Origin: an uncultured Candidatus Puniceispirillum sp.
GTDB lineage: Bacteria; Pseudomonadota; Alphaproteobacteria; Puniceispirillales; Puniceispirillaceae
DNA length: 64,000 bases
Reading direction: 5' to 3'
Assembly (NCBI GenBank): GCA_905182545.1
Contig: CAJJBY010000002.1
Location: forward strand, 124,001 to 188,000
Shown: positions 4,422 through 21,215 of the stretch, one piece after another
Numbering within the stretch: position 1 is the first letter of the stretch
Layout: every line of letters begins with the position of its first letter
Position numbers and translations under genes: made by a program
The notes under the pieces: model-generated
Told to the model about the DNA's origin: nothing
The model's input: only the letters and a program-made list of their open reading frames with translations
The model's database searches: none

Positions 4422-5942
4422 TTATGCCGTTTGTCTTATCTTGTCGCGGATTAACTTGAACAATGGCAAGAGGATCAGCACGATGGCAATGATCGTGATC
4501 GGCCCGGCGATTGGTCGGTTGAAGAAGATCATGAAATCACCGTCAGAGAATAAAAGCGACTGCCGCAGTTTTGGTTCAGCAATCGGTCCTAAAACAATAG
4601 CGAGAACTGCTGGCGCCACTGGATAATCCAACAACCGCAAGAAAAAAGCACATACTCCAACAATAACCATCAACCAGACATCAAACATATCCTGATAGGC
4701 CGCAAACGTTCCAACAAGCGAAAGTACGAAAATCAGCGGTGCTAGAATAGTAAACGGCATCCGAAGCATCCACAAAAACACCGGAATGAAGGCCAAATTG
4801 ATTAAGACAGCAATCACGTTTGAGATATAAAATGACCCGATCAGTGGCCAAACAAAATCAGGTTGATCGGTAAACAACAACGGTCCTGGCTGCAAACCCC
4901 AAATCACCATACCGGCGAGAAGAACAGCCGTTGTTGGCGACCCCGGAATCCCAAGGGTCATCATTGGCAACATTGCTCCTGTTGACGCTGAGTTATTTGC
5001 TGCTTCGGGTGCCGCAACCCCATCGATAGAGCCTTTGCCATATTCATTTGGATTACGAGAAGTCAGCTTAGCGACACCATAGGCCATCAATGACCCTGGA
5101 GTTGCCCCCGCAGCTGGGAGTATGCCAACAAAGAAGCCCAAAAATGAGCCAATAACTGTGCCCCGCCATGCGTGTCGGAACTCCTTAATGGCATCAATAA
5201 CTGCCCGCGCAGTCACATCAACATTGGACATTGATGAACCATGCCGCGACGTATTGATGGTCCAGAGCATCTCACCGATACCATAAACGCCAATAGCGAG
5301 CACAAGAAACCGTATACCATGCGAAAACCCGGTAATATCAAAGAATATCAAACGCGGTTCCCCTGAGACAATATCAAACCCAACCGTTGCCAACACGAGA
5401 CCGATACAAATCGAAAAGATTGTCTTAGGAATATCATCACCGCCAAGCCCGACAAAAGTCGCAAAGGCAAGTAACATCAGCGCAAAGACTTCAGGATCGC
5501 CAAATGACAGGGCAACAGCCGCCAGCAGGGGTGCAAAAGCCGTAAACATAACGTTTGAGACCGTGCCGCCAGCAAAAGATGCTAAGGCAGCAGCTACAAG
5601 CGCTATGTGCGCTTTTCCAGCCAACGCAAGAGGGCGGCCGTCAAAGGTTGTTGCAACCGCGGTTGACGCCCCCGGAATGCCAAGCGTAATCGATGAAATC
5701 GCACCACCATACATTGCCCCATAATAGATTGAGGCAAGGAAAATCATCGGTGATGTTGCACCACCTGTGTACCCCTGAATAACGAAAGTGAAAGGCAGCA
5801 GAATGGCGACACCATTCACCGATCCCAAGCCAGGCATTGCACCAACAAACAAGCCAACAATCACACCAATAATTGCGAGACCAAGATTGATAGGCTCAAG
5901 CGCAACCAAAATGCCATTCATAAGAGATGCTATAACATCCAT
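4422..5942 (-). CDS. tctA: Tripartite tricarboxylate transporter, large permease subunit TctA
   Basis: A 506-residue polytopic inner-membrane protein with about twelve hydrophobic segments and the TctA-typical glycine-rich motifs GAMPGLGSVNGVAILLPFTF, ITLGIPGASTA and PAAGATPGS, plus TLGIPGSPTTAVLLAGM in the second half. With TctB it forms the cation-driven permease fed by a periplasmic TctC protein. It is last in the order tctC-tctB-tctA and is followed by a strong terminator. The three tct genes lie directly downstream of oxc, frc and a formyltransferase gene on the same strand, so an oxalate or related small-carboxylate substrate is a reasonable guess, not shown. The tct genes look somewhat more AT-rich than the housekeeping part of the window. 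Confidence 0.95.
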   Translation of the reverse strand: MDVIASLMNGILVALEPINLGLAIIGVIVGLFVGAMPGLGSVNGVAILLPFTFVIQGYTGGATSPMIFLASIYYGAMYGGAISSITLGIPGASTAVATTFDGRPLALAGKAHIALVAAALASFAGGTVSNVMFTAFAPLLAAVALSFGDPEVFALMLLAFATFVGLGGDDIPKTIFSICIGLVLATVGFDIVSGEPRLIFFDITGFSHGIRFLVLAIGVYGIGEMLWTINTSRHGSSMSNVDVTARAVIDAIKEFRHAWRGTVIGSFLGFFVGILPAAGATPGSLMAYGVAKLTSRNPNEYGKGSIDGVAAPEAANNSASTGAMLPMMTLGIPGSPTTAVLLAGMVIWGLQPGPLLFTDQPDFVWPLIGSFYISNVIAVLINLAFIPVFLWMLRMPFTILAPLIFVLSLVGTFAAYQDMFDVWLMVIVGVCAFFLRLLDYPVAPAVLAIVLGPIAEPKLRQSLLFSDGDFMIFFNRPIAGPITIIAIVLILLPLFKLIRDKIRQTA

Positions 5943-5972
5943 ATCATTATTCCTCAGTTATTCTGATGGTGC

Positions 5973-6503
5973 CTAAAGAAACATTTCGTATAAGGGAATA
6001 AACAGAGGCTCTGACAAACCCTTTGGAAGGACAATACGCATGGCAATGTCAAAAAAGAAAAAGCAAGCGATAACTAAACCAAAACTAATAGACAAAGTTG
6101 CCCACCAGCTGTGACGCCCCAAAAAGCGGACGTAATAAATCATGAACGCCAAGATTGCAGCGTAGAAACCAGCAATCTCAATTAAAATCAAAAAACCAAA
6201 AAGACCACCACCGACGACAAATAACATGCGTCGTCCATACCCATCTAAAAATTCTTCGTCTGATTGGGATGGGGGTGACGTTCTACGGTACCAATTTATA
6301 CCAATCCAAACAGAGCAAATTAACATGATAAAGGACAACCAAAATGGCCAAAACCCGCTACCTGGGCCTTCACCTTCTATCAACCCGATATTGTCAAAAC
6401 GGGCAATGTCAGGATTCCAGTCTGGTGCCTCTCCTGACTTCCACATTAAGTATATTGAGAGAATTCCCAAGATAAATGCCGTTACAATTTCAGCTCTACG
6501 CAT
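5973..6503 (-). CDS. tctB: Tripartite tricarboxylate transporter, small permease subunit TctB
   Basis: A 176-residue protein with four predicted membrane helices: one at the N-terminus (VTAFILGILSIYLMW), one near residues 50-70 and two in the C-terminal half. This is the usual TctB layout and length. It has little sequence conservation, so the call rests on size, topology and position between tctC and tctA, with 30-bp gaps on either side. It should be co-transcribed with both. The loop after helix 1 is long and probably periplasmic. Confidence 0.85.
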   Translation of the reverse strand: MRRAEIVTAFILGILSIYLMWKSGEAPDWNPDIARFDNIGLIEGEGPGSGFWPFWLSFIMLICSVWIGINWYRRTSPPSQSDEEFLDGYGRRMLFVVGGGLFGFLILIEIAGFYAAILAFMIYYVRFLGRHSWWATLSISFGLVIACFFFFDIAMRIVLPKGLSEPLFIPLYEMFL

Positions 6504-6537
6504 ATCTTAGAACTCCTCTCAATATTTTTTTACGACG

Positions 6538-7539
6538 CTATTTAATTGCGCCAGATGCCTTCAAGATTTTTGTATGATTCTTGATTTGGTCAGCCCAATA
6601 AGCTTTGAGCGCGTCACCAGACATCAAATCACCCATGAGTGATTTCTTTGACTTGTACTTCTGCCAATCTGCTGAGGCATAAACTTTTGCAAACAGATCA
6701 GTATAGTAAGCTTGTGCTTTTTCAGACATTCCAGGTGCACCAACAACCGACCGTTGCATGAAATATGACCAGCTAATCTGCTTACCACCTGCAAACACTT
6801 CACTCAATGTTGGCACATTTGGGAACATTGGCAGACGCGATTTGGTGAATGCAACCAATGGAACCATAGTGCCTGCCTCGTAGAAACCAAGAGCTTCTGA
6901 TGGGTTATTTACAGATGAATTCAACTGCTTACCAGCAACCTGCTTTGCAACAGCTCCACCGCCCTTATATGGAATATATTTCATAGATAAACCATAGTTT
7001 TTGTTCAGGAAGTCGGTGATGATGTTGTCTTCAGAGTTTTTGCCGGTACCACCCATTACCCACTTATTGCCGTCGGCTTTTGCTTTTGCCAGGAACTGGG
7101 CAAATGTTGTTAGGCCACTATCCTTGTGCACCCAAAGCAAAAATGTGTCTTCAGCCATGCGAGCTACTGGAGCAAAGCTCAAGCTGTCGATTTTCAGGCC
7201 GGGCTGACGAAGCGGCGTTGTATAAAATGAGTTCAACGTCACCATGATTGTATGATCTGGGTCACTGGCGTTAGAGGCTGCAATTAACGCCTCGGCCCCA
7301 GATCCACCTGACTTGTTTGTTGGAACCAACGGTCGATTAGAGAGATTTTCTTTCTCTACAATTGCTTGCATCAATCGAGCCATTTTATCAGCACCACCGC
7401 CTTTACCCGCCATGATGATAAAATCAATTGGCTTTGTAGGCTCCCAGCCATGGCTTCCGGCTACCGCAACACCTGATACTGACGTTGCCGCCAATGCCAT
7501 GCCAACTGCACCGAAAAATAGTTTTTTAATAGACTTCAT
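6538..7539 (-). CDS. tctC: TctC/Bug-family periplasmic solute-binding protein
   Basis: A 333-residue extracytoplasmic receptor of the Bug family. The start at 7539 is preferred over the upstream ATG because a perfect AAAGGAGGAG precedes it by 4 bases and it begins a clean signal peptide (MKSIKKLFFGAVGMALAA, cleavage near VAVAG). Family hallmarks are the KPIDFIIMAGKGGGADKMAR segment near the N-terminus, where Bug proteins bind the carboxylate through the beta-strand/loop, and the YIPYKGGGAVAKQVAGKQ segment. The ligand is unknown; the receptor gene comes first of the three, as usual for TTT operons. The strong ribosome-binding site suggests it is made in excess over TctAB. Confidence 0.92.
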   Translation of the reverse strand: MKSIKKLFFGAVGMALAATSVSGVAVAGSHGWEPTKPIDFIIMAGKGGGADKMARLMQAIVEKENLSNRPLVPTNKSGGSGAEALIAASNASDPDHTIMVTLNSFYTTPLRQPGLKIDSLSFAPVARMAEDTFLLWVHKDSGLTTFAQFLAKAKADGNKWVMGGTGKNSEDNIITDFLNKNYGLSMKYIPYKGGGAVAKQVAGKQLNSSVNNPSEALGFYEAGTMVPLVAFTKSRLPMFPNVPTLSEVFAGGKQISWSYFMQRSVVGAPGMSEKAQAYYTDLFAKVYASADWQKYKSKKSLMGDLMSGDALKAYWADQIKNHTKILKASGAIK

Positions 7540-7777
7540 AGTCTCCTCCTTTGTTTGGACATTATTTAGATACACCTTGTGGTTCAAAACTTTAAGTAAA
7601 TTAATGTAATATTGTAAACGGTGTTTAATTTACAAAACACAAAGCTGTTTGTTGTCACTCTTATTCTATTACGGTGACTTAATTAAATTTATTTTACAAC
7701 TCTTCAATTATATCTCAATTCATTTCAAAATTACTGGATTTGACCAATTCAAAACAGCCCCGTTTAATGTTTTCACA
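7540..7777. other. AT-rich leader between the fhs remnant and tctC
   Basis: This 238-bp AT-rich stretch holds no supportable ORF. It may carry a separate promoter for tctCBA, but I see no convincing -35/-10 pair with proper spacing. Confidence 0.5.
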
Positions 7778-7970
7778 CTAAAACAAGCCATCAATCTCAC
7801 CATTTTCATTTGTAAAAATAGTCTTGACGGCCGGATTACTTGGCAAACCAGGCATTATCATAAGCAGATGGAAACAGCTCAGCGGACAATATGCCAACGC
7901 CATCACCAATTTCAAAAATTGACTTCTTTTTCGCCGCGCGTGCGATTTCTATTTCTGTTAAGAGGCTCAC
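7778..7970 (-). pseudogene. fhs: Internally deleted remnant of formate-tetrahydrofolate ligase (N- and C-terminal ends joined)
   Basis: Three bases after the stop of the formyltransferase gene, a GTG at 7970 opens a frame containing TEIEIARAAKKKSIFEIGD and then GILSAELFP. This matches the start of Fhs (IEIAxAAxxKPIxEIxxxLGI...LxxYG). The homology stops abruptly and, in a shifted frame, resumes with MIMPGLPSNPA and ends NENGEIDGLF-stop at 7778, matching the Fhs C-terminus (IMTMPGLPKxPAA...DxNGxIDGLF). About 500 of the usual 557 residues, including the ATP P-loop and folate site, are absent, equal to about 1.5 kb. The piece shows that fhs once followed the formyltransferase gene in this operon, or that clone or assembly lost it. 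Confidence 0.85.
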
Positions 7971-7972
7971 GA

Positions 7973-8887
7973 CTATAAGCCTAATTTTGTTCCAGGGTTA
8001 ATTCCAGCAGCGGCAGCCCATTCGTTTGCCGTCATTTTTCCGCCATCAGCAGGCCGTAAACGCTTAATTAAAATCCGTCCACCTTCGGCCTGTACCGTAA
8101 CGCCATCTTCATCAACCGAAACGACTTCCCCAGCAGTCCCAGTGCCGTCAGCGCGTGCAATATCATAAATTTTCAATTCACTGCCAGCAATTGTTGTCCA
8201 CGCGCCAGGCGCAGGATTGGCAGCACGGATCATATTGTAAACATCGGTAACCGGCTTTGACCAATCGATCTCGGCAGACGCTTTGCCAAACCAACTTTCA
8301 TATGAACCATCTTCCAAACGCTGGTCATGTTTGATGATGACGCCAGCCTTGACCAGTTCCAACCCTTCGATCATCGCATCAACACCCATCGGGAACAGCT
8401 TTTTGAAATAAACATCGCCAAGCGTTTCATCAGGGCCTATTTCGCAAGTTTTCTGCAACATCATCGGACCTTCATCCAGACCATCATCAGGCCAGAAAAT
8501 AGACAAGCCAGTGCGCGTTTTACCCATTGCAATCGGCCAGTTGATCGAAGATGGCCCCCGATGTTCTGGGCAAAGTGACGGATGGTACTGAAAGGTGCCA
8601 TATGTTGGTGCATCGCGCACTTCCTGCGGAACAAACAACAACACATAAGCCATCATACAAACATCAGCATTGAATGATTTCATCAACGCTAATGCTTCAG
8701 GTGTTTTCCATGATGCAGGTTGATGGACGGGCAAACCTTTTTCACGCGCCAGTTCAACCAATGGGTCTTCAGGTTTTCCTTCTTTTGTCGGCGCACAACA
8801 AACAGCAACAACATCTTCGCCGCGCTCTAAAAGTCTTTCCAAAACAGTCTGACCAAAGGCCTGTTGTCCGTGTAATACAATCCTCAT
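7973..8887 (-). CDS. Stand-alone formyltransferase/hydrolase resembling the N-terminal domain of 10-formyl-THF dehydrogenase
   Basis: A 304-residue cytosolic protein. Residues 1-200 form the formyltransferase fold with the conserved segment YHPSLCPEHRGPSSINW and a WPDDGLDEGP loop containing the catalytic His and Asp. The C-terminal 100 residues form the OB-like Fmt_C domain (PGAW...LKIYD). The residue pair before the His (QYH rather than NVH) and the HPS/INW pattern are those of ALDH1L1/FDH hydrolase domains, not of methionyl-tRNA formyltransferase. The carrier and aldehyde dehydrogenase domains of FDH are absent. Good start: AGGAGAG precedes the ATG. It lies between frc and the fhs remnant, so it probably moves a formyl group to or from tetrahydrofolate; formyl-CoA as a donor is a speculative option. 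Confidence 0.8.
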   Translation of the reverse strand: MRIVLHGQQAFGQTVLERLLERGEDVVAVCCAPTKEGKPEDPLVELAREKGLPVHQPASWKTPEALALMKSFNADVCMMAYVLLFVPQEVRDAPTYGTFQYHPSLCPEHRGPSSINWPIAMGKTRTGLSIFWPDDGLDEGPMMLQKTCEIGPDETLGDVYFKKLFPMGVDAMIEGLELVKAGVIIKHDQRLEDGSYESWFGKASAEIDWSKPVTDVYNMIRAANPAPGAWTTIAGSELKIYDIARADGTGTAGEVVSVDEDGVTVQAEGGRILIKRLRPADGGKMTANEWAAAAGINPGTKLGL

Positions 8888-8963: not shown

Positions 8964-10224
8964 TTATTTAGCCGCGCCAACCGCGCCTGATTCAATGATC
9001 TGGACAAGCTCTTCGGCTGAATAGCCTAGAACATCAGTTAGGATTTCGGTTGTATGCTCACCAAGCAATGGTGAGCGCTGAACCTCAGCCGGACTATCGG
9101 ACAATTTCACCGGACAGCCAACCGAGATATATTCGCCGCGCTCTGGATGATCGACCTTTACCAAGGTTCCAGTCGCATACAAACCCTGATCTTCGGCAAT
9201 TTCTTTCATCGACAAGATCGGGCCAACCGGAATATCAAGCGGATTACATGCATCCATGACCTCAAATTTGGTCTTGGTCATTGTCCATTGTTCGATACGC
9301 TCAAAAATTTCGTTCAATTTATCAAGCCGCTGTGGTGGCTTGGTATATCCATCTCTTGGTTTTCCAGTCAGGCTCACCAATGATATCGCAAACTTTTTCC
9401 CAAACCGCCGCCTGAATGATGAAATAGGTATAGGCGTTTGGATCTTGTTCCCACCCCTTACAACGCAGAATACGTCCAGGCTGTCCACCACCAGAATCAT
9501 TGCCAGCGCGCGGTGTGGCATCACCGAATGGGACGCCTTCGCCAAATTGTGAATATTCTTTCAATGGGCCAGCGGCAAGGCGCTGCTGATCACGAAGCTT
9601 TACGCGGGCAAGGTTTAGAACCGAATCCTGCATCGCGGCTGTGACTTTTTGGCCACGGCCAGATTTTTCACGATGGAACAGCGCCGTTACAATACCAAGG
9701 CACAAATGAAGTCCAGTTCCTGAATCACCAATCTGCGCACCCGTCACCAATGGCGGGCCATCGCGAAAACCCGTTGTTGAGGCTGAACCACCAGCACATT
9801 GCGCGACATTTTCATAAACCTTGCAATCTTGATATTTGCCCGGGCCAAAGCCTTTGATTGACGCCAGAATCAGGCGCGGATTGATTTCTTGAATCCGTTC
9901 CCATGTAAAGCCCATCCGGTCAAGCGCGCCAGGGGCAAAATTTTCCACAAGAACATCACAGGTTTCGATGAGACGCGTCAAAATCTGTTTGCCGGTCTCG
10001 TTTTTGGAATTCAGCTCAATTGACCGTTTATTATGATTCAACATGGTGAAATAGAGGCTGTCGGCCCCGTCAACATCGACCAGCTGCTGGCGCGTTGCAT
10101 CACCGACCCCCGGACGTTCAACCTTGATCACATCAGCGCCAAACCAAGCCAAAAGCTGGGTACAGGTCGGGCCTGACTGAACATGGGTGAAATCCAGAAC
10201 TTTAATACCTTGAAGAGCTTTCAT
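8964..10224 (-). CDS. frc: Formyl-CoA:oxalate CoA-transferase (one frameshift)
   Basis: Class III CoA-transferase that swaps CoA from formyl-CoA to oxalate, giving oxalyl-CoA for Oxc and releasing formate. The repaired length is 419 residues, close to Oxalobacter Frc (428). Seen: start [20 protein letters not shown], the catalytic-Asp segment [10 protein letters not shown] around residue 170, and a glycine-rich loop DSGGGQPG that corresponds to the mobile active-site loop. The frame breaks at a T4 run at 9360-9363: the N-terminal 290 codons end early while the C-terminal part ([15 protein letters not shown] onward) continues one frame over. Removal of one base restores it. It lies 42 bp downstream of oxc and in the same direction. 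Acetyl- or succinyl-CoA:oxalate transferase activity is a less likely alternative. Confidence 0.9.
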
Positions 10225-10266: not shown

Positions 10267-11979
10267 CTATTTCTTAGAAACCACACTTTGCGGGTTAAGG
10301 TTACCGATACGGCCACTTTCCGTTCCAGCATTTTCATCAATGACAGCGTTGACCAAGGTTGGCTTGCCACTATCCATTGCTTCGTTTACCGCGCGTGTTA
10401 GCTCATCCGGTGTCGTCGCATAGACGCCAACACCGCCAAAGGCAGCCATCATGAGGTCATAGCGGGCATCTTTGACAAATACAGTCGGGGCTACATCTTC
10501 ACCACCTGTTAAGTTTTGATCGGTACCGCGATAGATGCCGTTATTATTGAACACAACAACACAGACCGACAAATTGTAACGGCAGATTGTCTCAATCTCC
10601 ATGCCCGAAAATCCAAAGGCACTATCGCCTTCAACAGCAAGAACGCGCTGGCCGGTTTCAACGGCTGCGGCGACAGCAGCGCCCATGCCAATACCCATAA
10701 TGCCCCATGTGCCAACGTCAAGGCGCTTGCGCGGCTTGAACACGTTAATGATGCTACGCGCAAAATCAAGGGTGTTTGCCCCCTCATTCACAAGGATTGC
10801 ATCAGGACGCTGCTTGACGATCGTGCGAAGCGCACCAAGCGCGCTATGGAAATCCATTGGCACTGTATTACTCATCAGCTTGGCTAACATTTTTTCCAGA
10901 TTCACATCTTTGCGCGTCTGAATATTGGCAATCCAATCGGCAGAAACGGCTGGCCATTTATCGCCCATCGCCTTGGTCATAGCGCTCAAGCATGATCCGA
11001 TATCGCCAACGACTGGTGCCACAATCTCGACATTACTGTCCATTTCGCGCGGCTCAATATCAACCTGAATAAAGCGTTTCGACCCAGGCTCGCCCCAGCT
11101 TTTTCCCTTACCATGTGATAATAGCCAATTCAAACGCGCTCCAACCATGACCACAACATCGGCCTCTTTTAGTACCAGCGAGCGTGCGGCGCCAGCTGAT
11201 TGCGAGTGATCATCTGGCAGCAGGCCTTTGGCCATACTCATTGGCAGATAGGGAACACCACTTTTTTCAACAAAGCTGCGAACAATTTCATCTTCTTGAG
11301 CATAAGCAGCGCCTTTACCAAGAATGATCAATGGACGCTTTGCGCTTTTCAACACATCAAGCGCACGCGCAATCGAATCTGCTGATGGCAATTGCTGCGG
11401 TGCTGGATCAACAACCTTTACCAGTGATTTCTGGCCTTCCACCGCATCCATGACTTGGGCGAATAATTTGGCTGGCAGATCAAGATAAACACCGCCCGGG
11501 CGACCTGAAACAGCGGCGCGAATGGCGCGGGCAACAGCAATGCCGATATCTTCAGCATGAAGAACGCGGAACGCCGCCTTACAAAGCGGCTTGGCAATAG
11601 CCAACTGATCCATTTCCTCATAGTCACCTTGCTGTAAATCAACAATTTCACGCTCGGATGAGCCACTGATCAGGATCATGGGGAAACAATTTGTGGTGGC
11701 ATTGGCAAGCGCGGTCAGACCGTTCAAAAAGCCCGGGGCCGACACCGTCAAGCAGATGCCCGGCTTTTTGGTCAGATAACCAGCAATCGATGCTGCGTTG
11801 CCTGCATGCTGTTCATGGCGGAAAGAAATTACCCGCATGCCTTCAGCTTGCGCAATTCGGCCAAGATCGGTGATCGGAATGCCCGGCACACCGTAAATAG
11901 TGTTGATATCATTGAGCTTAAGCGCATTAATAACGAGGTGAAAACCATCGGTTAGCGCCCGTGTCTCGGATGAAGTCAT
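10267..11979 (-). CDS. oxc: Oxalyl-CoA decarboxylase
   Basis: A 570-residue thiamine-diphosphate enzyme converting oxalyl-CoA to formyl-CoA and CO2. Domain order is Pyr (residues 1-190), ADP-binding middle domain (190-360) and PP domain (370-550). The ThDP-activating Glu is in SFRHEQHAG, and the Mg/ThDP motif runs from GDSAFGFSGME to NNNGIYRG. The segments SGSSEREIVDLQQGDYEEMD and GKGAAYAQ are characteristic of Oxc rather than of 2-hydroxyacyl-CoA lyase or acetolactate synthase. Start: AAGGAGACGCACAA before ATG. It is the first catabolic gene after gntR (99-bp gap) and is followed closely by frc, the classic oxalate-degradation pair. Confidence 0.96.
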   Translation of the reverse strand: MTSSETRALTDGFHLVINALKLNDINTIYGVPGIPITDLGRIAQAEGMRVISFRHEQHAGNAASIAGYLTKKPGICLTVSAPGFLNGLTALANATTNCFPMILISGSSEREIVDLQQGDYEEMDQLAIAKPLCKAAFRVLHAEDIGIAVARAIRAAVSGRPGGVYLDLPAKLFAQVMDAVEGQKSLVKVVDPAPQQLPSADSIARALDVLKSAKRPLIILGKGAAYAQEDEIVRSFVEKSGVPYLPMSMAKGLLPDDHSQSAGAARSLVLKEADVVVMVGARLNWLLSHGKGKSWGEPGSKRFIQVDIEPREMDSNVEIVAPVVGDIGSCLSAMTKAMGDKWPAVSADWIANIQTRKDVNLEKMLAKLMSNTVPMDFHSALGALRTIVKQRPDAILVNEGANTLDFARSIINVFKPRKRLDVGTWGIMGIGMGAAVAAAVETGQRVLAVEGDSAFGFSGMEIETICRYNLSVCVVVFNNNGIYRGTDQNLTGGEDVAPTVFVKDARYDLMMAAFGGVGVYATTPDELTRAVNEAMDSGKPTLVNAVIDENAGTESGRIGNLNPQSVVSKK

Positions 11980-12078: not shown

Positions 12079-12810
12079 TTATGTTTGTTCTGATTCCGCG
12101 ATTTCAGCACGAGCCTTGCCTTTATTTGCCAGCCGCGTCCATCTTTCCCGAATATGATCATGCAAGCGCATGGTATGCACGCGCACTAGCCGAGACGCCA
12201 ATTCGCTGTCGCGTGCCTCAAGCGCTTCGATGATTTCCATATGATCTGCAACTGAATGGGTGGCGCGATTATTTTCGCCCATCGCCCGACGCCTAACCGC
12301 AAACATATGCGCAAACAACCCATCCGTTGTCGACTTTAATAGCGGGCTGCCCGACAGATCAAAAATTGCCTGATGGAATTTGATATTGGCATCTGAATAT
12401 TCGCTTAGCTCAGCCTTGGAAGAGGTCGCGCTGTGGCGCATGGAAAAGTCGCGCAATGCTCTAATATCGGCCTCAGGGGCAATGCGCGCAGCAATATGCG
12501 CTGCCATGCTCTCAAGCGCAGCCCAAGTCACAACCATATCCAGAATTTCTTCAAGACTTTTGCGATGAATGAAAACGCCTTTGCGAGGCAAAATCTCGAC
12601 TAAGCCATCCTGTGCCAATCGCGCCAAAGCTTCTCGAATGGGTGTTCGTGAAACACCAAGCTGTTCTGCAAGCCGTCGCTCATCAAGGCGTAGTTCTTCA
12701 TCGGCATCATAGATATCGACCTTTAAAATGCTTTCGCGAAGCACGTCATAAATATGGTCTTTCAGCGTGAAATTGATCGAAACAGGCTTTAATTTGACAT
12801 CAATTGCCAT
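12079..12810 (-). CDS. GntR-family (FCD) transcriptional regulator of the oxalate locus
   Basis: A 243-residue repressor-type regulator. The winged helix-turn-helix at residues 20-80 contains LAEQLGVSRTPIREALARL, diagnostic for GntR. The FCD effector domain spans 95-225 with its metal/carboxylate-binding residues (D/N-x-x-F-H near NIKFHQAI, and later histidines). ATG at 12810 is chosen over the TTG one codon earlier; GGGAGT lies 6 bases upstream. It is immediately upstream of and co-directional with oxc. FCD regulators usually sense small organic acids, so oxalate, oxalyl-CoA or glyoxylate are candidate ligands. Two TGGYATACC palindromes in the divergent region toward sucC are candidate operators. 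Confidence 0.88.
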   Translation of the reverse strand: MAIDVKLKPVSINFTLKDHIYDVLRESILKVDIYDADEELRLDERRLAEQLGVSRTPIREALARLAQDGLVEILPRKGVFIHRKSLEEILDMVVTWAALESMAAHIAARIAPEADIRALRDFSMRHSATSSKAELSEYSDANIKFHQAIFDLSGSPLLKSTTDGLFAHMFAVRRRAMGENNRATHSVADHMEIIEALEARDSELASRLVRVHTMRLHDHIRERWTRLANKGKARAEIAESEQT

Positions 12811-12876
12811 CAATTACTCCCACTTCAATTTCCTGCCTTCGTTGATGTAACTTTTACGCTATGTCAGGCTTTATCT

Positions 12877-12970: not shown

Positions 12971-13167
12971 TATAAAGTGAAAATGTTGCGAAACATGTGG
13001 CGAAACAACGACCCGATTTAACTGATATGTCGCAAGGCGGTTTCACCCAAACTGTCGCGCCAAAAAACTTTGTGCATTTGTTGTACGAATATGTGACAAG
13101 AGATCGCTCATTGCAATTTTCGTGGCTTTATCACACAAGTCCACATAGCGGGGGAAAGACAGTAACA

Positions 13168-14360
13168 ATGAATATCCATGAACATCAGGCGAAGAAAATT
13201 TTACAGACATTTGGTGCGCCCATAGCTGCTGGCGTTGCAATCACCAGCCTTGACCAAGCCAAAAGCGCGATTGCATCCCTTCCCGGCCCAGTATGGGTGG
13301 TCAAAAGCCAGATCCATGCTGGCGGACGCGGCAAAGGAAAATTCAAGGAACTTGGCGCTGATGCCAAAGGCGGCGTTCGCGTCTCTTTTTCGGCTGGGGA
13401 AGCGCTTGCCAATGCTGTTGAAATGTTTGGCAAAACCCTTGTCACACAGCAAACCGGTCCAATTGGCAAAGCCGTCAATCAGCTTTATGTCGAAGATGGC
13501 GCCGATATTGACCGTGAATTATATCTGTCAATTCTTGTTGACCGCGAAACCGGCAAAACCTCATTCGTCGCCTCAACCGAAGGCGGCATGGATATTGAAA
13601 CGGTTGCGCACGACACGCCTGAACTGATCCATTCGGTTGGCATAAACGCCAGCGCTGGCTGTACTGATGCCGACGCGGCAACGCTTGCCGACGCCTTCAA
13701 GCTTGAGGGTCAGCCCGCGAACAGGGCATGGCGCTTTTCAAGAATCTTTACGAAGCCTTTGTCAGCAAGGATATGAGCCTGCTGGAAATCAACCCGTTGA
13801 TCGTCACCAAATCAAATGACGTTCAGGTACTTGATGCCAAAGTGTCTTTTGATAATAACGCACTGTTCCGACATCCTGACGTTATGGAATTACGCGACAT
13901 TACTGAAGAAGATGAAAAAGAAGTCGAAGCCTCAAAACATGACCTTGCCTATATCGCTCTTGATGGTGAAATCGGCTGTATGGTCAATGGTGCTGGTCTT
14001 GCGATGGCCACAATGGACATCATCAAGCTATATGGCGCCGAGCCAGCAAACTTTCTTGATGTTGGCGGCAGCGCAACAACCGAACGCGTTACCGCAGCCT
14101 TTAAGATCATTACCGCTGATCCAAATGTAAAAGGGATTTTGGTCAATATTTTCGGCGGCATCATGCGTTGTGATGTAATTGCCGAAGGCGTTGTCCAAGC
14201 GGCCAAGGATATTAATCTTGAAGTGCCTTTGGTGGTGCGCCTCGAAGGCACCAAGGTCGATGAAGGCAAAGCCATTATCAACAGCAGTGGACTGAATGTT
14301 ATCGCCGCTGATGATTTGGATGATGCAGCTCAAAAAATTGTTAAAGCAGTGAAAGGCTAA
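13168..14360 (+). CDS. sucC: Succinyl-CoA synthetase beta subunit (one frameshift)
   Basis: ADP-forming succinate-CoA ligase beta subunit of the TCA cycle. The repaired product is 397 residues, the usual length. The ATP-grasp domain begins [12 protein letters not shown] and includes [19 protein letters not shown]; the C-terminal CoA-ligase domain has [20 protein letters not shown] at 13168 follows GGGGAAAG by about 9 bases. The frame breaks at about 13711 (GGGTCAGCCC): one missing C restores [14 protein letters not shown]. It sits 5 bp before sucD and divergent from gntR, away from the usual mdh-sucCD-sucAB block as far as the window shows. Malate-CoA ligase is a homologous alternative, but the sequence follows alphaproteobacterial SucC closely. 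Confidence 0.93.
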
Positions 14361-16720: not shown

Positions 16721-19510
16721 CTATTCGGCAGCAATTCCCAGCGTGGCGACAACCCTGCAAGCGGCAAATTTGAACTCAGGTATCTTACCAAATGGATCAA
16801 CAACCGGATTAGTCAAAATATTCGCGGCTGCCTCGACATATGCAAATGGCACAAAGACCATATCTTCAGCAACCGCACGATCAGCACGCGCCATGATCGA
16901 AATTGACCCGCGTCGCGTTTCAATAGTTATCATGTCACCAGCCTCAGCTCCCAATCGACGAAGGGTGCGAGGATGAAGTGAGGCATTTGCCTGCGGTTCA
17001 ACCGCATCAAGCACCTTGGCGCGGCGGGTCATTGATCCCGTATGCCAATGTTCGAGCTGACGACCCGTTGTCAAAATCATCGGATATTCTGTATCCGGTG
17101 TTTCAGCTGGTGCAATAATGCTGGCAGGGGTGAATCTAGCCCTTCCATCAGTTCGCGGGAACCCATCACCAAACACGATCGGCTGACCCGGATCAGTCTC
17201 ATCCAATGACGGATAGGTGACAACATTTTCAGCAGCCAAACGATCCCATGTAATATTATCGAGTGATTTCATTGATAGTTTCATTTCGGCAAACACTTCT
17301 CGCGGATGCCTGTAGGTCCAATCAAGACCAATGCGTTTGGCAAGCTCAACTGTAATCCACCAATCTTCGCGGGCATCACCTGGCGGTGCAATGGCCGGAC
17401 GACCCATTTGCACCTGACGGTTTGTATTGGTGGCGGTCCCTGTTTTTTCTGCCCATGCCGATGCTGGCAATATCACGTCAGCATAATTTGCAGTTTCAGT
17501 TAGGAAAATATCCTGCACAACTAGATGATCCAGCTTGGCAAGCGCATGCACGCGCATGATCGGACATCAGGATCGGACATGGCCGGGTTTTCACCAAGAA
17601 CATACATCGAAGTGATATCACCGTCGTGGACCGCATCCATAATTTCAGTCACGGTCAGACCTTTTTCTGGCGCAATCGAATCTGAATGCCAAATTTCATT
17701 AAAGGCCGAACGAACACCATCATCGTGACACTTTGATAATCGGGAAGGAACATCGGGATCAAACCCGCGTCAGATGCGCCCTGGACATTGTTCTGGCCGC
17801 GCAGCGGGTGTAAGCCTGTCCCTGGGCGCCCAACTTGCCCACACATCAAAGCCAGCGAAATCAGACAGCGTGAATTATCGGTTCCGTGAATATGCTGCGA
17901 AACGCCCATTCCCCAGAAAATCATCGCTGATGTGGCACCGGCAAAATCACGCGCAACAGCACGAAGGGTTTCAGCATCAATACCGCAAAATTCAGACATT
18001 TTTTCTGGCGAAAACTCTTTGAGATGCGTTTTCATCGCATCCCAGTTTTCGGTATAGCTCTCGATATACTGCTGATCATAAAGCTGTTCTTCGACAATCA
18101 CATGCATGATGGCATTCAGCATTGATACATCGGCACCCGGGCGGAATTGCAGCATATGCGATGCATGTCGCTTTGAGCCCCTGCCCTCGAGGATCCATCA
18201 CAATCAATTTGCCGCCACGTTTGGCAAATTGCTTGAAAGTAGGTGGCTGCTACCGGATGGTTTTCGGTCGGGTTGGCACCGATAACAATGGCGACATCGG
18301 CATTTTCAATTTCATTAAAAGTTGCTGTGACAGCAGCTGAACCTACATTTTCCATTAGCGCCGCAACTGAAGATGCGTGGCATAACCTTGTGCAATGATC
18401 CACGTTATTATGACCAAACCCTTGCCTGATCAACTTCTGAAATAAGTAAGCCTCTTCATTTGAGCATTTAGCTGAACCAAACCCGGCGACACGCTTTCCG
18501 CGACTATCACGGTGCCTTGCAAACCCGTTTGCCGCCACATCAAGCGCTTCTTCCCAAGTGGCTTCTCGGAAATGTGTCAACGGGTTTGCCGGATCTACAT
18601 TCAGCCCCTTTGCTGGAGCATCTTCACGCCTGATTAATGGTGTGGTTAAGACGATGATCATGATGCACATAATCAAAACCAAACCGACCTTTTACGCATA
18701 GACGATTTTCATTTGCTGGCCCATTTATGCCCTCAACATATTTAATTTTATCATCTTTAATTTTGAACGATAGCTGACAACCAACACCACAGTAAGGGCA
18801 AACAGACTTAACCTCGCGGTCATAATCTTGACTGTCGCCATGCTTGTTTGTCATCTAACACAGAGGCTGGCATTAAGGCTCCCGTTGGACAGGCCTGAAC
18901 ACACTCTCCGCATGCAACACAAGTTGACTGCCCCATCGGATCATTCATATCAAAAACGATTTGCGCATCAAGACCGCGTCCGGCCATGCCAATCACATCA
19001 TTAACCTGCACTTCACGACAAGCCCGAACGCAAAGATTACAATGGATACAGGCGTCCAGATTCACACTCATCGCCACATGGCTATCGTCAAGCAACGGAA
19101 CATGACAGGCTTCACGCGCCGGAAAACGGCTGTCCGACACGCCATTCAATGCGCGCCATGTCCAGAAAATGTGATGACGCATCATGCGGTTGATCTGGCT
19201 GATCTGCGGCAAGCAATTCGACTACAAGCGCGCGTGATTTCTCAGCACGTTCGCTTGCAGTATTCACCACCATGCCATCTTGCACTGGCCGAATACAAGA
19301 GGCGGCTAAAACCCGCTCACCCTCGATTTCGACCATACAGGCACGGCAATTTCCATCCGAGCGATAACCAGGCTCGGGCTTGTGACACAAATGTGGAATC
19401 AAGGTTCCTTGCGCTTGTGCCGCTTCCCAAATTGTCGCGTCTTCTGGCACGGAAATATCCTTGCCATCCAGTTTAATGGTTACAGTTTTTTGCGGCGTTG
19501 AATCTAGCAT
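16721..19510 (-). CDS. fdhA: NAD-dependent formate dehydrogenase, molybdo/tungsto-pterin alpha subunit (heavily frameshifted)
   Basis: Catalytic subunit oxidising formate to CO2, about 929 residues when repaired. Order: N-terminal [2Fe-2S] domain (ATIWEAAQAQG, DGNCRACMVEIEG), two [4Fe-4S] sites (CIHCNLCVRAC and CVACGECVQACPTGAL), bis-MGD domain with CPYCGVGC and a later CVKGRFG, the active-site Cys in CTRLCHASSVAAL, and the C-terminal MopB domain starting near PMILTTGRQLEHWHT. The active-site position is Cys, not Sec. At least seven frame changes are visible, near 19146, 18840, 18650, 18242, 18175, 17735 and 17570, yet conserved residues continue through each. Start: TGAGG before ATG, 7 bases after fdhB ends. 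The net length is a multiple of three. Confidence 0.9.
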
Positions 19511-19517
19511 GGGGGCC

Positions 19518-21215
19518 TCAGCTAACTTCTTCAGAGAAATGTTTCATCGTCAATACGAATTGGATTTGGGGCTGCTTGTCCCAGACCGCAGATCGAAGCA
19601 TCCTGCATCACTTGCACACAGATCACTCAACAAGAGGCTTGTCCCATTTATCGGCTTGCATCAGCTTGAACTGCCTTTCTCGCAACCGGCTCGGCATGGC
19701 GTGCATTGGCCACAGCTTTCATCTTCGAAAAAGCGCAGCATATTCAAGCGCCGCATCACGTACCCTATCTTGATCCGACAGCACCACCACCGCGGCCGAT
19801 CCAATAAAGGTACCAAGCGGTTGCAATGTATCAAAATCAAGCGGAACGTCATTCACGCTGGCAGGCAATAAGCCAGATGATGGCCCGCCCGGTTGATAGG
19901 CCTTAAAAACATGACCTTCGGTCATGCCACCAGCCGCCTCGATAATATCGGTAATGGTTGATCCAGCTGGCAAAAGATGCACACCCGGATTTACCACACG
20001 GCCCGAAACTGAGTAGCTGCGAAGGCCTGTCCGCCCGTTCTTTTCAACCGAAGACAGCACCTCTGGCCCTTCACGGCAAATGCGGGTGATCCAATGCAGC
20101 GTTTCGATATTATGCACCAATGTTGGCTGGTTAAAGACACCAACCTGCGCCACATAGGGTGGACGGTGACGCGGCAACCCGCGCTTGCCTTCAATCGATT
20201 CAATCATCGCGCTTTCTTCACCGCAGATATAGGCACCGGCACCACGGCGCAAATCAATATATCCCTTTGCCACCAAACCAGCATCTTCAAGCCTTGCGAT
20301 TTCATCAGCCAGAATTTTTAGCACAACCGGATATTCGTCACGCATATAAATAAAACAGGTATCTGCCTCAACCGCCCATGCCGCAATCAACATGCCCTCA
20401 AGGAACAAATGCGGCGTCCGCTCAAGATAATAACGGTCTTTGAACGTACCCGGCTCGCCCTCATCGCCATTCACGGCAAGATAGCGTGGCCCTTCAGCAG
20501 CCCGCACGAAGCCCCATTTTTTACCTGACGGAAATCCTGCTCCACCAAGCCCGCGAAGACCGCTTTGGTTCACCAATTCCTGAACCGCCTGCCAATCACC
20601 ATCAGCACGAAGCGACTCAAGCTTGTCATAACCGCCGGTCGCCCGATAGGCCGCCAAATCCTGATAATCGGTCATGTGCGGATGCGTGTCATCTGCCGCA
20701 ATCGCAGCATCGACCTTTTCGACTGTTGCAAAATCAATATGATTATGGCCAATTTCTAGCACTGGCGCGGTATTACAGCGTCCCATGCACGGCGCGCGCA
20801 AAACCCTTACCTTGGTCGGATCAAGACCATCTTCAAGCGCCGATTTCAACGCCTGCGCTCCAGCCAACTCACATGACAGCGAGTCACACACACGAATAGT
20901 CAATGCCGGTGGTGGCACGTCACCATCTTTCACAACGTCGAAATGCGCGTAAAAGGTGGCAACTTCGTAAACTTCGGTCTGCGCCATGCGCATTTCATCA
21001 GCAAGCGCATTGAGATGCCTCACGCTGAGATGTCCGTAATGATCCTGAATCAGATGCATATGTTCGATCAGCAAATCGCGTCGCCGCGACCGGTCGCCCA
21101 GAAGCGCCCGAACATCCGCCATGGCAGCATCATCAATTTGGCGTCCTTTCGGAGTTTTACGCCCTTTACCGGGGGCTGATTTCCAAACACCAATATCACC
21201 GTCGAAAGTATCCAA
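19518..21215 (-). CDS. fdhB: NAD-dependent formate dehydrogenase, fused NuoE-NuoF-type beta subunit (3' end frameshifted)
   Basis: Electron-transfer subunit passing electrons from formate to NAD+, about 565 residues. Residues 1-150 are a NuoE-like thioredoxin-fold [2Fe-2S] domain (CDSLSC, APCMGRC). Residues 200-500 are NuoF-like with the FMN loop GLRGLGGAGFPSGKKWGF, NADH site GAGAYICGEESA, and the [4Fe-4S] ligands ESCGQCTPCRAGC plus SICGLG. Fusion of the gamma and beta units is known from Methylobacterium Fdh1B. TTG start at 21215 with AGGAGAG 7 bases upstream. The frame is clean to 19740; then at least four indels occur in about 220 bp before the stop TGA at 19518. Complex I is excluded because the next gene is a formate dehydrogenase alpha subunit. 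Confidence 0.9.

Follow-up and report, generated by a model that had tools for sequence, protein, structure and literature searches.

In the 64,000 nucleotides of Candidatus Puniceispirillum DNA analysed here (the window), an operon for CoA-dependent oxalate use contains, at 7778-7970 of the minus strand, what is left of an fhs gene: its first ~40 and its last 28 codons (stop included), joined out of frame. Fhs is formate-tetrahydrofolate ligase and brings formate into folate metabolism, and the locus raises the question of whether the loss is genuine and, if it is, what it means for the use of formate by this organism. The sequence-only reading, which had placed the two ends at exactly these coordinates, left two answers standing: either the strain lost at this locus its route from formate to the C1-folate pool, with oxalate use turning from assimilation towards oxidation, or about 1.5 kb is missing through an artefact.

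The gntR, oxc, frc and formyltransferase genes are ordered as in relatives (Table 1), and both oxc and the N-terminal piece of frc (531 bits, cut-off 504) score above their curated cut-offs. The source genome departs from the usual oxalate operon in carrying an fhs relic, in having no usp gene and in a possible sequencing frameshift in frc.

Table 1. Features of the oxalate operon in the window and of the locus bearing the oxygenase-reductase fusion elsewhere in the source genome (G000); G003 and G013 are genomes of the same genus.
Feature	Position	Strand	Details
GntR-type regulator gene, operon head	12079..12813	-	named by eye; synteny tested
oxc (oxalyl-CoA decarboxylase), intact	10267..11979	-	TIGR03254, 983 bits (cut-off 739)
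frc (formyl-CoA transferase), two frames	8964..10224	-	one extra base near 9355
Formyltransferase, 304 aa	7973..8887	-	Formyl_trans_N and _C
N-terminal fhs relic	7851..7970	-	operon-type leader 7956-7970 (VSLLT) and 35 island-type codons 7851-7955; leader alignment
C-terminal fhs relic	7778..7861	-	27 residues and stop; frame shifted against the N-terminal part
Deletion joint, common to both parts	7851..7861	-	ATGATAATGCC; imperfect repeat (9/11) in the intact fhs
Spacer before tctC	7541..7710	-	170 bp; 79% to G013, 76% to G003
tctC, tctB, tctA, intact, syntenic in relatives	4422..7540	-	names from the sequence-only reading
796-aa Rieske oxygenase and ferredoxin reductase fusion	L191:10962-13352 = G000:C1:76961-79351		26-residue MsmA spacer

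The N-terminal part of the relic starts with a GTG at 7970, directly downstream of the formyltransferase gene, reads VSLLTEIEIARAAKKKSIFEIGDGVGILSAELFPSAYDNA and stays open for 44 codons, while the C-terminal part reads MIMPGLPSNPAVKTIFTNENGEIDGLF in another frame up to a stop at 7778. Against the intact fhs of the source genome (L001), 85/105 nucleotides of the N-terminal part (E 8e-25) and 71/84 of the C-terminal part (E 1e-22) are identical; the corresponding protein comparisons, which bear out the assignment of the two fragments to the Fhs termini, give E values of 6e-13 and 5e-12. The similarity to Fhs is far beyond chance, and both ends align to the family (Fhs/FTHFS; PF01268, NF010030). 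The relic nevertheless falls short of a full-length PF01268 open frame, with ~63 of 555 codons left and a frame change; compared with intact Fhs it lacks ~1,484 bp, among them the part coding for TPAGEGKTTTT in the intact copy. A scan of 7500-8000 found promoter-like sites on the minus strand only (four; shuffled sequences gave 1.5, s.d. 1.0) and no terminator.

The operonic copy is certainly nonfunctional, the middle of the protein being gone, and this is what would speak for a strain that can no longer assimilate formate into folate and is left with oxidizing the formate derived from oxalate. The search for a second, intact fhs that the sequence-only reading had proposed was, however, successful. 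The source assembly (2.0 Mb in 13 contigs, 98.4% complete, contamination 4.48%) contains one FTHFS match, at G000:C1:86014-87678, which is full length and free of stops, covers positions 1-556 of the 556 of PF01268 with 897.9 bits (cut-off 27) and also passes NF010030. This gene adjoins folD, and by its predicted product the formate-to-folate step is still encoded in the source genome. Loss of the route from formate to the C1-folate pool, which had been claimed for this locus only, is thus not a loss for the genome, and with an intact fhs elsewhere the switch of oxalate use from assimilation to oxidation does not follow; we consider it extremely unlikely. The loss of a pathway should not be read from a single locus.

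The intact gene sits between a PanB-like gene and folD; past folD come a second folD-like gene and an exporter of the TauE type, and aprA also lies downstream; upstream are a 796-residue Rieske oxygenase-reductase fusion, a Rieske ferredoxin, a transport-type binding protein and a 171-residue protein with a weak likeness to a dioxygenase beta subunit. The fusion protein contains, at residue 86, the motif CXH-X26-CXXH, which according to the main text of PMC4433239 is characteristic of MsmA, the methanesulfonate monooxygenase; for Filomicrobium the paper also places TauE and a PanB-like gene next to msm. An oxygenase with a 26-residue spacer, a Rieske ferredoxin, TauE, PanB-like and transporter-like genes are common to the msm cluster described there and to the C1 locus, whereas the fusion of oxygenase and reductase into a single 796-residue protein sets the source genome apart; the words 'tetrahydrofolate', 'formate', 'fold' and 'fhs' are all absent from that main text. 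By its gene content the C1 locus is a methanesulfonate-oxidation (msm) island, with a putative activity on methanesulfonate.

Contamination was considered as a source of the intact fhs and rejected. Eight kilobases of C1 (150-158 kb) best match the same clade, with identities of 92% to G009, 87-93% to G001, 88% to G015 and 85% to G012, against 79-80% to G002, G003 and G013, some shorter pieces being lower (73% to G009, 77% to G001). C1 appears to fit the same clade as the source genome, with some room left for a chimeric contig, a reservation that, together with the 4.48% contamination, weighs against the explanation favoured below.

The length missing from the relic is 1,484 bp, counted with one copy of the shared 11-mer kept, in agreement with the ~1.5 kb and the frame change at the joint that had been noticed from the sequence. 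As 1,484 is 2 modulo 3, the length of the deletion is by itself enough to explain the frame change and no extra mutation is needed. The statement that no flanking repeat accounts for the deletion needs correction: at the two joint sites the intact copy carries the 11-mers ATGATAAAGCC and ATGACAATGCC, which agree in 9/11 positions, and the joint of the relic, ATGATAATGCC, has its left end as on the N-terminal side, its right end as on the C-terminal side and AA common to both in between. Similarity of 9/11 is reached by only 32 of the 212,226 pairs of 11-mers lying at least 1 kb apart in the intact fhs. The middle of the gene is likely to have been removed by a slippage-type deletion between these imperfect short repeats.

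Two fhs copies in one genome and an 11-bp near-repeat are also what might mislead an assembler, and a working operonic fhs could then have lost 1.5 kb through the collapse of reads from the two copies; the single-base frameshifts in frc and sucC of the same assembly, and the contigs of two other genomes (G015 and G010) that break within the same gene, would fit such an error. A working gene cut by an assembler should, however, keep ends like those of a working gene, and the ends of the relic have changed, which disfavours an artefact. With the joint codons excluded, the relic differs from the island copy by 16 amino-acid-changing and 13 silent substitutions, compared with 6:25 between the island copies of G000 and G003 (Fisher p 0.007 against 16:13) and 4:28 between the operon copies of G001 and G005 (Fisher p 0.0008). 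Constraint on the relic thus appears relaxed relative to intact copies, as in a pseudogene, with one exception that keeps the ratio test from being clean: the intact island pair of G014 and G010_C45 gives 11.5:7.5 in the same codons.

Residues point in the same direction. The relic is altered at 7 of 31 positions that are invariant among the 12 intact copies of the genus (joint codons again excluded), with changes in both ends. When 25 intact copies from a broader sampling are each scored against the residues that all others share, 23 show no departure at the 24 residues concerned; the remaining two, from Filomicrobium and Granulosicoccaceae and the most distant of the set, depart at 4/28 each, and the relic departs at 3/24, one of the three lying inside the joint. 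Furthermore, both ends are merely 81-85% identical to the island copy, so that they are no splice of it, and parallel structures are seen in other assemblies. The excess of amino-acid changes and these parallels oppose the artefact that the sequence-only reading had kept as its alternative, which we regard as very unlikely; on balance, the comparisons indicate a genuine, old pseudogene.

A residual role as a 44-codon peptide or a leader RNA is compatible with the open N-terminal part. With residues changed, signs of constraint absent and at most a few leader codons retained by the three genus relatives that lack an operonic fhs, this has next to no chance of being correct.

How exceptional the arrangement is can be judged from 80 related loci in named records. 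An fhs match lies downstream of the formyltransferase gene in 60 of them; in six of the remaining 20 the sequence ends within ~520 bp of that gene, and 14 have no adjacent fhs despite at least 1.4 kb to inspect, three of these being members of the genus (L076, L087 and L139). The ancestral order proposed from the sequence, oxc-frc-formyltransferase-fhs-tctCBA, is supported as regards the place of fhs, but omits a usp gene (Usp domain, universal stress protein) between fhs and tctC. A whole-genome FTHFS search covered 35 genomes of the 80 loci, leaving out L094 and L098; L123, where the sequence ends 193 bp after the gene, was left out of the tally. Among the other 11 loci lacking an adjacent fhs, which are from more distant genomes, nine have an FTHFS elsewhere and two (L099 and L150) have none, which we count against the explanation favoured below. 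A further full or partial copy is carried by 5 of 23 genomes with an adjacent fhs. By these counts, loss of fhs at the operon site is recurrent and usually, not always, accompanied by a second copy elsewhere. The L099 genome retains the oxalate genes and the formyltransferase gene with no FTHFS match.

Within the genus of Candidatus Puniceispirillum (SAR116), 16 genomes including the source were surveyed. Of the 15 others, 11 have a formyltransferase closely related to that of the window (78-96% identical), whereas G002, G004, G006 and G008 have no close match and drop out of the operonic count; G004 (94% complete) has no FTHFS match either. Five genomes (G001, G005, G007, G009 and G012) carry an intact fhs of operon type downstream of the formyltransferase gene, which is their sole FTHFS match and is followed, before tctC, by usp (the G001 copy of which includes a run of N). 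No usp match was found in the other 11/16 genomes. Between the formyltransferase gene and tctC of G003, G011 and G013 there is no fhs. G010, G014 and G015 are left out of this operonic count because their sequence ends in or before fhs: the operon contig of G015 stops within fhs and its tctC contig begins within tctC, that of G010 ends 69 nt into an island-type fhs and that of G014 ends within the formyltransferase gene.

The msm fusion protein is present in G000, G002, G003, G010 (twice), G011, G014 (in two pieces) and G013 (a fragment at a contig edge), with full-length matches at 83% in G002 and G003 and at 68-69% in G010 and G011; the other 9/16 genomes give weaker relatives only. In all seven msm genomes, none of which has usp (0/7), the island-type fhs adjoins a PanB-like gene and folD. 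Two such copies (PanB-like, fhs, folD) occur in G010, on C16 and C45. The G013 assembly has stops within the island fhs, and no intact copy was found in this genome, which we count against the explanation proposed below. The operonic fhs is intact in 5/5 readable genomes without msm and in 0/4 with it (G000, G003, G011 and G013; Fisher p 0.008); the nine genomes compared are not mutually independent, since G003 and G013 are sisters.

According to the part of PMC12262181 that treats the SsuD/MsmA split, SsuD and MsmA are exclusive alternatives in the genomes of SAR116 subclade I. The division of the genus into members with and without msm is common to both studies, and the position of fhs, which that part does not mention, may follow this already known split. 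Among the papers listed in literature searches, none has a title on fhs in SAR116 oxalate operons.

The relic is not just the usual operon gene cut short. Its leader, GTGAGCCTCTTAACA, resembles the operon-type leader GTGAGCTTCAAAACA, whereas its body is, by sequence comparison, of island type, unlike the operon-type fhs of its nearest relatives. Among 25 intact genes the body is nearest to its own island copy in both parts (85/105 and 71/84), followed by G003 (77/105 and 67/84). Placement of the relic, based on ~185 nt, groups it with the G000 island copy and the G015 operonic fragment (support 95) and rejects its being forced into the operon type (AU p 0.010). G015, probably the sister of G000 (support 77), has in its operonic fhs the same leader and the start of an island body, open to the contig end, and close relatives of the PanB-like and msm genes were not found in it. 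The operonic start of G010 likewise combines the leader with an island body; its 69 nt are identical to the genome's own C45 copy, and a TAA is the third codon after the GTG.

The spacer of 170 bp that precedes tctC resembles G013 and G003 and has no such match in G001, G005, G007 and G012, nor in G011, which does have msm. The oxc, frc and formyltransferase genes, on the other hand, group G000 with G001, G009, G012 and G015. The segment between formyltransferase and tctC was therefore probably exchanged or converted, and the spacer speaks for another msm-bearing lineage as the source, at least of the spacer itself. Pieces of Fhs were looked for in the spacers of G003, G013 and G011 and discarded, the matches being weak (G003 start, E 0.12); by eye, G003 and G013 keep ~8 codons of the operon-type leader, a resemblance that is not significant.

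The body itself could instead have come by conversion from the genome's own island, as its closeness to that copy and the identity over 69 nt between the operonic start of G010 and its own C45 copy suggest. Conversion of fhs alone leaves the likeness of the spacer to G003 and G013 unexplained, and G015 carries the hybrid with no island found there; we give this origin, rather than exchange with another msm-bearing lineage, somewhat less than an even chance. Alternatively, the hybrid fhs with a short spacer would be the older state of the genus, and operon-type fhs with usp a later arrival in some lineages. The island-type body behind an operon leader in G000, G015 and G010, and the spacer common to G000, G003 and G013, could be read in this way. 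We consider it unlikely: the branching of operon-type fhs tracks that of the species (G001, G009, G012, G005 and G007), and the order fhs-usp-tctC is also seen in Pelagibius and in two MAGs, one of Afifella and one labelled Rhodobacteraceae, which makes that arrangement old.

The explanation that we favour, and hold to be probable, is that the relic is a decayed fhs pseudogene and that the operonic copy was dispensable because a second, intact fhs of island type is present beside folD. An island-type fhs would formerly have stood behind an operon-type leader in the oxalate operon, its body brought there by allele exchange or gene conversion and at least the spacer before tctC by way of an msm-bearing lineage. 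Redundancy with the island fhs would have permitted the loss, and the ~1.48 kb middle would then have disappeared by the slippage-type deletion described above.

More tentatively, fhs, usually a single gene in this genus, may move between two sites, the oxalate operon and the msm island; island genomes would drop the operonic fhs together with usp, and the segment between formyltransferase and tctC would be exchanged or converted from one lineage to another. On this reading G000, with an island copy and an operonic relic, and its likely sister G015, with a hybrid start and no island found, may represent opposite outcomes of one duplication. As a case of gene decay the relic is ordinary; of more interest are its mixed ancestry and the association with msm. 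The relic suggests that one folate entry enzyme serves both oxalate- and methanesulfonate-derived C1 units in these marine bacteria, and the association of msm with where fhs sits makes a simple prediction for SAR116 genomes as they are sequenced.

Among solved structures, the operonic formyltransferase has its best match in 1s3i (E 5e-56), the N-terminal domain of 10-formyltetrahydrofolate dehydrogenase, which is closer than methionyl-tRNA formyltransferase (E 8e-38), and the protein scores below the NCBIfam fmt cut-off (134 versus 201.5 bits). If it moves formyl groups between formyl-CoA and folate, which is speculation, the operon would be linked to folate even without fhs.

The frameshift in frc was considered as a second lesion of the pathway and set aside, as it consists of a single extra base and sucC nearby has a one-base lesion too. 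Frame changes affect 2/10 genes in the comparison with L046 and 2/13 in that with L047, the same two genes both times, and the frc and sucC indels are possible sequencing errors. The one-base indels relative to relatives lie at 9350-9360 in frc and within the succinate-CoA-ligase beta-like gene (sucC) at 13072-14360. Beyond the oxalate operon, 16721-21215 holds open reading frames that by eye are formate dehydrogenase-like, the large subunit apparently in pieces, and a gene at 284-1676, multicopper-oxidase-like by eye, is split over two frames.
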